Shown: piece by piece, positions 28,418-31,412 of the stretch
Layout of the letters: every line of letters starts with the position of its first letter
How positions within the stretch are numbered: the stretch's first letter is position 1
Assembly: GCA_017379075.1 (NCBI GenBank)
Contig: JAFNXL010000043.1
Span: 1-47,209 of the forward strand
From: Bacteroidaceae bacterium
Lineage (GTDB): Bacteria > Bacteroidota > Bacteroidia > Bacteroidales > Bacteroidaceae
Direction: 5' to 3'
DNA length: 47,209 nucleotides
The notes under the pieces: generated by a model
What the model was told of the DNA's origin: nothing
The model's input: the letters and a program-made list of their open reading frames with translations, nothing else
Databases searched by the model: none
Program-made: the position numbers and the translations under genes

Positions 28418-29827
28418 ATGGCAGAAGCACCACAAATATTGTGGCAGAATTGTTTAAGTTTTATTCAAAGCAACTTGAACGAGCAACAATTCCAGACATG
28501 GTTCGTACCGACTAAATTCAAGTCATACGATGCCGAGTCTGGGCTGCTTACCTTATATGTACCCAGCCAGTTCTTCTATGAATATATTGAACAGAATTTC
28601 CGTAAGCTTGTATATGCCGCCATTTTCCGTTTTTTCGGTCAGAAGACACGTCTGAACTACATCGTCAAGATTACCTCTTCTTCCTTGGTCGAGCAGGAAA
28701 GCGACAGAAGTCCTTTTGTTGAGACTGCAACTGGCAATAGGCCCGCCAACCAAAGCCCGAATATACTGCAGGCTAGTGCTCCCGCACAGGATTTAGATTC
28801 ACAACTAAATACAAAGTTGAATTTCGACAACTTCATTGCAGGAGACAGCAACAAACTGCCCCGCTCTGTTGGTATGGCTATTGCTGAGCACCCCAACCAG
28901 CAGACATTCAATCCCTTATTCATATACGGACCGAGCGGTGTGGGTAAGACCCATCTTGTCAATGCCATTGGCACACGCCTCAAACAGCTTTATCCCGCCA
29001 AACGTGTGCTATATGTCAGCGCCCACCTATTCCAGGTACAATACACGGATTCTGTGCGCCATAATACGGTGAATGATTTTATCAACTTCTATCAGAGTAT
29101 TGATACACTTATCATTGATGACGTACAAGAATTTGCATCATTGAAGGGCACCCAAAATACCTTCTTCCACATCTTCAACCATCTGCATCAAAACGGAAGA
29201 CAGATTATCCTGACCAGCGATCGTCCCCCACACGCATTATCCGGAATGGAAGACCGCATGCTCACCCGTTTCAAATGGGGATTGATTGCAGAATTGGAAA
29301 AGCCCGAAGAAGCACTCAGACAAGCCATCTTGACAAGCAAGATACAACACGATGGACTGAACATCGGCAAGGATGTCATCAACTATATCGCCGAACATGT
29401 TAGTGAAAGTGTGCGCGAATTGGAAGGTGTCGTACATAGCCTGCTTGCCAATTCCATCGTATATAATAAGAAAGTGGTTGACCTTGAGTTCGCCAAGCGC
29501 ATTCTCAAGCACAACAAACCGGCAATCAACAAGCGCAATATCACCATTGACAAGATTGTGGAGGAGACCTGCGCTTGCTGTAACATCCGCCAGGAAGACG
29601 TCTACAACAAGACCAGAAAAGCAGACATCGTTGAGGCACGCCAGCTGAGCATGTACCTGGCACAAAAACATACCACGCTTACTATAAGCCGTATAGGTAC
29701 ATTGTTGGGAAACCGTAACCATGCAACGGTAAGCCATGGTATAAAGAACATCGAGAATAAATTGAAAGTGAGCAAAAAGCTCCGCGATACTCTGAAACTC
29801 ATTGAGGAAAAACTTTGTCTACAATGA
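28418..29827 (+). CDS. dnaA: Chromosomal replication initiator DnaA
   Basis: This 469-residue initiator binds DnaA boxes and melts the origin. It has an N-terminal interaction domain (residues 1-90, ILWQNCLSFIQSNLNEQQF) and a variable linker (about 90-130). The AAA+ domain has Walker A GPSGVGKTHL near 171-180 and Walker B TLIIDDVQE near 229-237. The domain IV helix-turn-helix signature is GNRNHATVSHGIKNI near 430-445. The next gene begins within its last bases (ATGA, 29824-29827), so it is translationally coupled to the nitroreductase fusion. No beta-clamp gene follows, unlike many other phyla. Confidence 0.97.
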   Translation: MAEAPQILWQNCLSFIQSNLNEQQFQTWFVPTKFKSYDAESGLLTLYVPSQFFYEYIEQNFRKLVYAAIFRFFGQKTRLNYIVKITSSSLVEQESDRSPFVETATGNRPANQSPNILQASAPAQDLDSQLNTKLNFDNFIAGDSNKLPRSVGMAIAEHPNQQTFNPLFIYGPSGVGKTHLVNAIGTRLKQLYPAKRVLYVSAHLFQVQYTDSVRHNTVNDFINFYQSIDTLIIDDVQEFASLKGTQNTFFHIFNHLHQNGRQIILTSDRPPHALSGMEDRMLTRFKWGLIAELEKPEEALRQAILTSKIQHDGLNIGKDVINYIAEHVSESVRELEGVVHSLLANSIVYNKKVVDLEFAKRILKHNKPAINKRNITIDKIVEETCACCNIRQEDVYNKTRKADIVEARQLSMYLAQKHTTLTISRIGTLLGNRNHATVSHGIKNIENKLKVSKKLRDTLKLIEEKLCLQ

Positions 29828-31050
29828 TGAACATAAAAACCAGACGTACCATACGAAAATATAATCAGCAGCCCATCACCGATGAGCTGCTGAATCAGTT
29901 ATTAGAAGATTCTGCCCGCACCCAGACAATGGGCAACCTGCAACTCTACAGCGTGATCGTAACCCGTGATGAAGAGATGAAGAAGCGTCTTGCACCATTT
30001 CATTTCAACCAACCGATGGTTACAGAAGCACCCGTAGTGCTGACCATTTGCGCAGATTTCAGAAGAACAACAGACTGGTGCGAAGCTAGGAAAGCCACAC
30101 CGGGATATGACAATCTGTTAAGCTATCAGAATGCCGCCACAGACGCCCTGCTCTATGCACAGACGTTCAGCAATCTTGCTGAAGAAGCCGGACTGGGCAT
30201 CTGCTTCCTTGGTACAACGGTTTATATGACACAAGGCATCATAGACACCCTCAAGTTGCCCGCACTCGTCATGCCTGTAGCCACACTTACGGTTGGATGG
30301 CCGGATGAGGAGCCAGCCTTGACAGACCGCCTTCCATTGGAGGCATTTGTGCATCAAGAAACATACCAGCCCTACTCCGCCGAACGTATCGACAACCTGT
30401 ACGAATACAAAGAAAGTCTGCCCGAGAACAAAGCTTTCGTGGAACAGAACAGCAAAGAAACACTTGCACAAGTGTTCACAGACTGCAGATACACCAAGGA
30501 CGCCAATGAAGCCATGTCGATAACCCTGGCCGAATCGTTATTCAAACAAGGTTTCCTCAGCTCTCCCCAAATTTGCTCCTCACTTCCCATTTTGGAAGTC
30601 CGCCCAGACGTGCTGGAGTGTGACGTAGTGCGCTTCCAAAACAAACGCGAGAAATGGGTAGCGTTTGTGGGTCTGTATGAAGGCTATCCATATGAAATCT
30701 TCACCGGACTGATGGATGATGAAGAAGGCATCATGTTGCCAAAGAGTGTTTCCAGCGGACGCATCATCAAACACACAAGCCGCAACGGGCAGAAACGCTA
30801 CGATTTCCAGTTCGAGAACAAACGTGGTTACAAGACTACCGTAGAGGGACTAAGCGAGAAATTCAACCCCGAATATTGGAACTACGCCAAGCTCATCAGC
30901 GGTGTGCTCCGTTACCGCATGCCCATTGACCATGTGATAAAGCTTGTCAGCTCATTGGAACTTGACAGCGACAACATCAACTCCTGGACAACCGGTGTAG
31001 TACGCGCCTTGAAACGCTATCAGCCCAACGCACCGCTGGAAGAAGAATGA
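29824..31050 (+). CDS. Nitroreductase fused to NrdJ-like C-terminal region
   Basis: In 408 residues this joins two unrelated parts. Residues about 1-245 are a nitroreductase-fold flavin oxidoreductase of the Bacteroidota NADPH-dependent type (KTRRTIRKYNQQPITDELL; QNAATDALLYAQTFSNLAEE; AGLGICFLGT). Residues about 259-405 match, from memory, the region before the extreme C-terminus of adenosylcobalamin-dependent ribonucleotide reductase (ECDVVRFQNKREKWVAFVGL; YEIFTGLMDDEEGIMLPKSV; FNPEYWNYAKLISGVLRYRM). The reductase's catalytic barrel and its C-terminal Cys/zinc-ribbon tail are absent. The frame is uninterrupted. It overlaps dnaA and folB by four bases on either side, so the transcript is tightly coupled. 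Function is unknown. Starts at 29815, 29824 and 29827 are possible. Confidence 0.85.
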   Translation: MMNIKTRRTIRKYNQQPITDELLNQLLEDSARTQTMGNLQLYSVIVTRDEEMKKRLAPFHFNQPMVTEAPVVLTICADFRRTTDWCEARKATPGYDNLLSYQNAATDALLYAQTFSNLAEEAGLGICFLGTTVYMTQGIIDTLKLPALVMPVATLTVGWPDEEPALTDRLPLEAFVHQETYQPYSAERIDNLYEYKESLPENKAFVEQNSKETLAQVFTDCRYTKDANEAMSITLAESLFKQGFLSSPQICSSLPILEVRPDVLECDVVRFQNKREKWVAFVGLYEGYPYEIFTGLMDDEEGIMLPKSVSSGRIIKHTSRNGQKRYDFQFENKRGYKTTVEGLSEKFNPEYWNYAKLISGVLRYRMPIDHVIKLVSSLELDSDNINSWTTGVVRALKRYQPNAPLEEE

Positions 31051-31412
31051 CAGCAACCATCAAGATAGAACGTTTGCGCATCCATGCCCGACATGGTGTG
31101 CTCCCCCAAGAACGCATTGTGGGAGCATGGTTTTATGTCAGCATGGAAGCGGAGTTCGACTGCACCCCCGAAGCATATCTCGATGACCAACTTAGTGGTA
31201 CGATAAACTATGCCGATATCGTATCATGCATAACTCAACAACTAGACACCCCCAGCCAGCTTCTGGAACATTTGGTGTACCGCTCAGGCCAATCGCTGAT
31301 GGACACTTTCCCCCAAATCAACCACCTTACGCTTTCCATCTTCAAGGAAAACCCACCCATGAAAGCCCAATGCGATGAAATTGGCATAAAAATGGATTTC
31401 GCACGCCAATAA
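31047..31412 (+). CDS. folB: Dihydroneopterin aldolase
   Basis: This 121-residue cytosolic enzyme converts dihydroneopterin to 6-hydroxymethyl-dihydropterin and glycolaldehyde in folate synthesis. It has the family pattern LRIHARHGVLPQER (E22 in the conserved HGxxxxE region), INYADI near 53-58, and LLEHLVYR near 72-79. KENPPMKA near 106 supplies the usual lysine. The start overlaps the fusion gene's stop (ATGA), placing it third in the dnaA transcript. Confidence 0.92.
   Translation: MTATIKIERLRIHARHGVLPQERIVGAWFYVSMEAEFDCTPEAYLDDQLSGTINYADIVSCITQQLDTPSQLLEHLVYRSGQSLMDTFPQINHLTLSIFKENPPMKAQCDEIGIKMDFARQ

Follow-up and report, generated by a model that had tools for sequence, protein, structure and literature searches.

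Introduction

The C-terminal region of the B12-dependent class II ribonucleotide reductase (RNR) NrdJ, termed the CRD, is known for its role as an electron relay, and the same role has been described for NrdJb (PMC5704485, PMC4520616). In the NrdJ studied, tetramers and hexamers no longer form in response to dATP or dGTP once the entire CRD is deleted; what reduces the enzyme natively and how the CRD drives these oligomers are described as open questions (PMC5704485). In the split class II RNR of P. aeruginosa, the CRD is encoded apart from the catalytic chain, as NrdJb, which partners NrdJa in dithiol exchange (PMC4520616). The long C-termini of class II RNRs are predicted to contain an IscU-like domain, which has been studied within RNR sequences and NrdJb, with no role reported for it (PMC9669993). 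Here, we describe a gene of 408 codons on a 47,209-nucleotide contig from a Bacteroidaceae bacterium (JAFNXL010000043.1 of assembly GCA_017379075.1; this whole stretch is referred to as the window), in which a nitroreductase is fused to the C-terminal domain (CTD) of NrdJ.

The fusion protein shares features with each of these systems. Its C-terminal body of ~145 residues is homologous to the CRD, which follows the barrel in NrdJ relatives, but the window copy is fused to a nitroreductase, has neither the six-cysteine array nor a barrel, and comes from a genome in which no NrdJ was found. Like NrdJb it is encoded apart from a catalytic chain; unlike NrdJb it has no redox pair, and no catalytic partner was found for it. 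Judged by position in NrdJ, the CTD body probably corresponds to the published IscU-like domain, whose fold is a prediction (PMC9669993); the window copy differs in being orphaned. The nitroreductase half is closest to NfsA/NfrA-type NADPH nitroreductases and aligns as a whole domain with PDB 3eof, which ends where the CTD begins. No description of an orphan or nitroreductase-fused NrdJ domain was found among the titles and abstract openings of the literature matches listed, a range outside which most subscription journals fall.

Related genomes retain the CTD repeatedly after the barrel and the redox cysteines have gone, either as a free protein, as part of a nitroreductase or at the end of a degenerate NrdJ, and the domain is under strong purifying selection in the fusions. 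We conclude with high confidence that the CTD has a selected role that is independent of NrdJ catalysis.

Domain structure of the fusion protein

The features discussed in this article are listed here by window position; all lie on the (+) strand, and residues are numbered from the ATG at 29824.

28418..29827, (+): dnaA; open reading frame matching Bac_DnaA (189 bits), Bac_DnaA_C and DnaA_N
29824..31050, (+): nitroreductase/NrdJ CTD fusion, 408 aa; uninterrupted frame, second ATG at 29827
29824..30558, (+): nitroreductase domain, residues 1-245; from PF00881, PDB 3eof_A and a 48-sequence alignment
30559..30600, (+): linker, residues 246-259; length varies among fusions (junction columns of the alignment)
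30601..31020, (+): NrdJ CTD body (the CRD without its cysteine array), residues 260-399; from NrdJ comparison, conserved columns and dN/dS
31021..31047, (+): short acidic terminus where NrdJ has its six-cysteine zinc/redox tail; the sequence ends QPNAPLEEE
31047..31412, (+): folB (dihydroneopterin aldolase); open reading frame matching FolB (87.5 bits)

A preliminary description of this DNA had proposed that one frame joins a nitroreductase to the NrdJ C-terminus, and both halves bear this out. Residues 1-245 match PF00881 at 59.7 bits (cut-off 23.5), which places them in the FMN nitroreductase superfamily, and align with PDB 3eof ('putative oxidoreductase', 248 aa) over chain residues 3-247 (E 1.3e-99). 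From its sequence, this half is predicted to bind FMN and to act as an NADPH-dependent reductase; its score against the NCBIfam equivalog PRK10765 is 108 bits, below the cut-off of 223.

Residues ~256-400 share 74-80% identity with the CTD of full-length NrdJ in relatives. The closest relatives of the window CTD are other fusions, and full NrdJ frames of 851-934 aa from same-genus genomes match it at 74-79%. One genome, G067, encodes an NrdJ of 845 aa separately from its fusion, and the CTD of this NrdJ is 77-78% identical to that of the window and is followed by a six-cysteine tail. The Pfam domain TSCPD (PF12637) resembles the second half of the CTD, and 69/96 relatives hit it with an E-value of 1 or less. 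The window CTD scores 14.8-17.0 bits against it, below the curated cut-off of 22.8, and matches none of the NCBIfam NrdJ models. The match to NrdJ that the preliminary description had proposed stands by direct comparison with NrdJ sequences. A PDB sequence search with the CTD, as single sequence and as profile, returned nothing significant, and RNR matches to the CTD alignment in NCBIfam and PHROGs were traced to ~26 rows carrying the NrdJ tail.

The reported absence of the barrel and of the cysteine/zinc tail was also confirmed, the latter by the QPNAPLEEE end. The barrel family PF02867 has no match in the fusion gene, nor anywhere in its own genome, which is 92% complete, so that absence there is not certain; NrdD is present in this genome. 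The ATGA overlaps with both neighbours were read at 29824-29827, common to the dnaA stop and the nitroreductase start, and at 31047-31050, common to the fusion stop and the folB start. The overlap between dnaA and the nitroreductase is exactly 4 bases in 36/48 fusions, with a gap of less than 40 bases in 47/48, and the distance from fusion to folB is exactly -4 in 13 of the 39 measured.

Loss of the cysteine tail

All six tail cysteines are present in 46/46 NrdJ sequences and in 0/107 orphan, fused or degenerate copies. The window tail has no cysteine at all, and so lacks the six that characterise the CRD and NrdJb. Tails with four or five cysteines occur in 6/107 copies (L055, L143, L156, L157, L246 and L249), each of which has kept the four presumed zinc cysteines and lost one or both of the redox pair, the zinc and redox cysteines being assigned by spacing to the Stackebrandtia NrdJ proposal (PMC5704485). 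Four fusion tails (L039, L041, L044 and L045) fall outside the search pattern, and their ends contain no cysteine. Since the redox pair is broken in every orphan copy examined, the retained job is hardly that of an electron relay. A role of the orphan CTD as electron shuttle was accordingly rejected, an intact redox pair being absent in 107/107.

Distribution of the CTD with and without the barrel

Three samples were searched: 101 genomes of the genus (a selection from a larger group), 399 of the family and 393 of the order. Within the genus, the CTD is present in 95/101 genomes. Its 96 genes divide into 49 nitroreductase fusions, 25 that encode a full NrdJ, 20 that encode the CTD alone and 2 that encode a 'mini' NrdJ without barrel. 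One of the fusions (L057) contains a single in-frame TAG at nitroreductase residue 39-40. The PF02867 barrel is found in 26/101 genus genomes, among them one without CTD (G014), and the CTD is kept in 70 of the 75 genomes that have no PF02867 match. The same picture is obtained from the 12 genomes with a completeness of 90% or higher and contamination of no more than 5%: all 12 have the CTD and four the barrel, and the CTD is kept in 8/8 of those that are barrel-less.

The CTD is found in 368/399 genomes across the family and in 343/393 across the order. Outside the family, the frames among the matches listed are NrdJ-sized, except for those of G743 (161 aa, stand-alone), G760 (558 aa), G511 (624 aa) and G595 (793 aa). 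Within the best 80 of 583 loci, the match covers the entire fusion in 13, reaching at least residue 401. The titles of these 13 read uncultured Bacteroidaceae, Prevotellaceae or Bacteroidales, and an animal (buffalo, deer, goat, sheep or reindeer) is mentioned in 6.

Two further architectures were seen. One locus (L075 in G011) has a 448-aa frame consisting of the CTD and ~250 residues of other N-terminal sequence, with a nitroreductase 4-5 kb away, and another (L138, G448:C6) is a stand-alone CTD with an N-terminus of ~75 residues.

NrdD is found in 91/101 genus genomes, and no class I RNR small subunit was found in any of the 101. The E-values of NrdD in the genus cluster near 1e-190, 1e-100 and 1e-78, which suggests differing NrdD types. 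Among 19 genomes of other genera with orphan or degenerate forms, PF02867 is present in two, as a separate 843-aa RNR in G230 and as a dead copy in G264. Three genomes of one genus, g14 (G276, G421 and G436), have a stand-alone CTD, and neither NrdD nor an RNR barrel was found in them; either they are incomplete or they have an unusual source of deoxynucleotides.

Selection and conservation

Selection was estimated by the Nei-Gojobori method on chosen close pairs (20 of fusions, 6 of stand-alone genes and 5 of NrdJ). Those with dS undefined, at or below 0.05 or at or above 2 were dropped before medians were taken, which left 16, 6 and 2 pairs, respectively, for the CTD. In the fusions, the median dN/dS is 0.012 for the CTD (16 pairs), 0.045 for the nitroreductase (17), 0.037 for DnaA (15) and 0.090 for FolB (10), so that none of the other three parts compared is as constrained as the CTD. 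On this value, decay of the fused CTD was rejected. Stand-alone CTDs have a median of 0.029 (6 pairs). The two usable NrdJ pairs gave 0.009 and, with the opposing trend, 0.194 (L098-L059), which does not amount to a fair comparison with live NrdJ.

The alignments agree with this constraint. Across the 96 genus sequences, 55 CTD columns are invariant, and across 153 copies from all genera sampled, in 56/144 columns a shared residue reaches a frequency of at least 95% in the NrdJ, fused and orphan groups alike. About 18 columns are fixed in NrdJ and looser or shifted in the other copies.

NrdJ frames with an eroded barrel and an intact CTD

In another genus, g15, some NrdJ copies have a barrel that is dead or being eroded. 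Counted by open-frame size, its 58 genomes comprise 24 with full-length NrdJ (one of them, G350, also with a stand-alone copy), 21 whose frames are all stand-alone, 4 with odd frames (G264, G142, G492 and G482), one with a fragment (G498) and 8 without a match. Two of the stand-alone frames contain a stop (G386 and G490). The extra copy in G350 (L250) is a long-branched stand-alone CTD beside a full NrdJ in the same genome.

The odd frames were aligned to the G067 NrdJ and scored at 12 landmark residues. Nine live NrdJ controls have 12/12 landmarks, with identities of 80-87% in the barrel and 81-86% in the CTD. In L165 (G264, 772 aa) and L246 (G142, 817 aa) a single landmark of the 12 is left, and barrel identity has fallen to 37% and 33%, with CTD identities of 81% and 80%, respectively. 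Both have lost the cysteine and glutamate of NPCGE and most of the APTGT block, and their Pfam barrel matches are 87 bits (L165) and 65 bits (L246) vs 304 bits for live NrdJ. In L248 (G482, 538 aa), barrel identity is 14%, and just a portion of the barrel is matched, weakly. L247 (G492, 815 aa) has a barrel identity of 42%, 10/12 landmarks and no cysteine tail, and may be catalytically alive. CTD identity is 77-81% in all four. In genus g6, a frame of 516 aa (L143 in G230) was also aligned, in which a CTD of 79% identity stands behind 330 residues in which no barrel was detected (10% identity, the chance level, and no Pfam barrel match). None of these five frames contains a stop.

Association with nitroreductase and folB

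Of the 22 stand-alone or mini genes in the genus, 21 have a nitroreductase no more than 1.5 kb away. In other genera this linkage is loose: a nitroreductase was found at 0/3 loci of g2 and 1/13 stand-alone loci of g15 (some of these stretches stop at contig ends), vs folB at 3/3 and 12/13, directly downstream on the same strand at 8/13. Two genomes (G288 and G303) have the nitroreductase without the CTD. The fusion is therefore one use of the CTD and not its definition. No other constant neighbour of stand-alone CTD genes was found among ten neighbouring proteins at six loci.

Origin of the fusion

The gene order dnaA, opposite-strand nitroreductase, nrdJ and folB (immediate or within ~4 kb) occurs in other genera (L126-L129, L131, L159 and L160) as well as within the genus (L061, L062 and L105), and we take it for the ancestral one. 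Stand-alone CTD genes occupy the same gap, from the opposite-strand nitroreductase to folB (e.g. L068-L074). Remnants of nrdJ with different extents have also been retained: L055 consists of NrdJ residues 3-97, the CTD and most of the tail, L092 of residues 1-34 and the CTD, and L153-L155, in another genus, of residues ~1-64 and the CTD.

Phylogenetic inference relied on DnaA, since the CTD is too short for firm branches (18/143 starred in its tree). The DnaA trees were made by a 'quick' method; the second covers 103/153 loci, those with a DnaA stretch, and in it long branches meet, L098 joining L156 and L157. The distinction between NrdJ and no NrdJ requires 7 changes on the DnaA tree, of which 3 are forced by starred branches. 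Together with the differing breakpoints of the remnants, this indicates that the barrel was lost several times. The fusion state requires 3-4 changes on the DnaA trees, 3 of them forced; linker length differs among fusions, and the joining may have occurred repeatedly or been reversed. One deep, well-supported DnaA clade contains 46/49 genus fusions. In two genomes of the genus, G067 (L032/L050) and G232 (L162/L163), a dnaA-linked fusion coexists with a full NrdJ elsewhere, whose stretch has neither dnaA nor folB; this second NrdJ is perhaps a re-acquisition.

We propose that nrdJ eroded in place between the nitroreductase gene and folB, and that the nitroreductase would then have been joined in frame to the surviving CTD. 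The preliminary description had likewise supposed that nrdJ once lay beside the nitroreductase and was mostly deleted, and the order that persists in other genera supports this. It had set such a deletion against recruitment of the domain as a putative sensor of nucleotides or flavin redox state; both loss in place and recruitment seem to have happened, and the two are not mutually exclusive. The architecture survey that it suggested finds a fusion, a full nrdJ, a stand-alone CTD or a barrel-less NrdJ at the same place in related genomes, and the dN/dS check that it also suggested, with the median of 0.012, supports its judgement that the fused part is not decaying. Its picture of a lone, stranded remnant has to be given up, as the condition is recurrent, several genera having stand-alone or barrel-dead versions, and the domain has been retained. 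A sequencing or assembly deletion, which it had named as a possible refutation, is contradicted by 48 further fusions of the same type in the genus, though relatives do hold a full nrdJ here.

Possible functions of the orphan domain

To reconcile these observations, the best overall explanation combines erosion of nrdJ in place, fusion, and retention of the CTD for a job outside RNR catalysis; we give it an even chance of being correct as a whole. Within NrdJ, the CTD would have served the enzyme plus another function, and this second function would have outlived the enzyme. We are evenly divided on whether the CTD is a non-redox docking or assembly (oligomerisation) module. In the fusion, such a module would sit on a flavin reductase co-produced with DnaA and FolB, and would gather this NADPH:FMN-type reductase or tether it to a partner that helps to supply deoxynucleotides or folate. 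NrdD is the first candidate for this partner, because it is the RNR that these genomes retain, and is a doubtful one. More generally, we lean slightly towards the view that the CTD outlives the class II enzyme, free or nitroreductase-fused, and acts in trans on NrdD or a folate or replication partner, with some full-length NrdJ being dead carriers of the CTD.

Several observations weigh against this explanation. Most of the genomes are drafts in many contigs. The domain can be lost, as 50/393 order genomes, counted irrespective of barrel status, have no CTD, and its retention without the barrel looks mainly family-specific. The distribution of NrdD hardly differs between barrel-bearing (21/26) and barrel-less (70/75) genus genomes, and among the 19 orphan-type genomes of other genera NrdD is found in 16, with 3 showing none. 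A nitroreductase lies within 1.5 kb of only 7/25 genus NrdJ genes; family-wide, it is found (E 1e-40) in 246/399 genomes vs 368/399 for the CTD, and two genomes (G101 and G130) have a stand-alone CTD without it.

The fusion could instead reveal a contact between two proteins that work together, the nitroreductase being the native reductant of CRD-type class II RNR. The native donor of CRD-type NrdJ has not been found and a redoxin is doubted (PMC5704485), a nitroreductase adjoins nrdJ in several genera (L126-L135 and L159-L161), and there are 49 fusions in the genus. However, an intact redox pair occurs in 0/107 orphan, fused or degenerate copies, and a nitroreductase is missing from the 1.5 kb around 18/25 genus NrdJ genes; in certain NrdJ genomes (e.g. 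G016 and G059) none was detected at E 1e-40. We regard this explanation as unlikely. A link to folate is less probable still. NfsB-type nitroreductases reduce dihydropterins, and the nitroreductase might be a dihydropterin reductase working with FolB, with the CTD only setting its oligomeric state. In keeping with this, folB is a frequent neighbour of nrdJ and CTD genes over several genera, and fusions overlap it or lie at short spacing; yet folB also follows full nrdJ without a nearby nitroreductase (e.g. L099 and L102), and stand-alone CTDs lie beside folB with no nitroreductase near (L153-L155 and L256-L259).

A nucleotide sensor has also been considered, in which the CTD binds dATP or dGTP, alters the assembly or activity of the nitroreductase and so reports deoxynucleotide supply beside dnaA. 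The operon with dnaA and folB would suit such a role, as would the hints of a third nucleotide site and the requirement of the CRD for dATP/dGTP-induced oligomers (PMC5704485). A nucleotide site in the CRD has never been directly demonstrated, however, binding assays being inconclusive (PMC5704485), and effector binding in P. aeruginosa resides in NrdJa (PMC4520616), so that we consider the sensor improbable. An Fe-S scaffold, in which the IscU-like domain would still handle clusters, e.g. for the NrdD activase, draws on the IscU-like folds of long class II C-termini, where IscU ligand cysteines were reported in 253/600 sequences of one cluster (PMC9669993). The CTD has a single invariant cysteine in 96 copies, replaced by alanine in L250, and this very improbable explanation was rejected. 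A passive remnant or an assembly artefact, that is, a recent deletion or chimera without function, was likewise rejected and has next to no probability. The stops in the nitroreductase part of L057 and in the stand-alone frames of G386 and G490 speak for it. Against it stand the 49 genus fusions, 46 of them in one DnaA clade, in assemblies from several animals, the CTD dN/dS of 0.012 and the 56/144 columns conserved across all groups.

Concluding remarks

The explanation that we prefer, in which the CTD is kept for a job outside RNR catalysis, gives the locus a greater importance than the preliminary description had allowed, because the domain is kept repeatedly without the enzyme. It also provides small proteins for functional study, either of ~170-250 aa or as the 408-aa fusion, some of them probably in cultured rumen bacteria. 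These lineages thus amount to a natural experiment, in which the barrel and the redox cysteines have repeatedly been removed and the CTD kept, so that the function of the domain is separable from catalysis.

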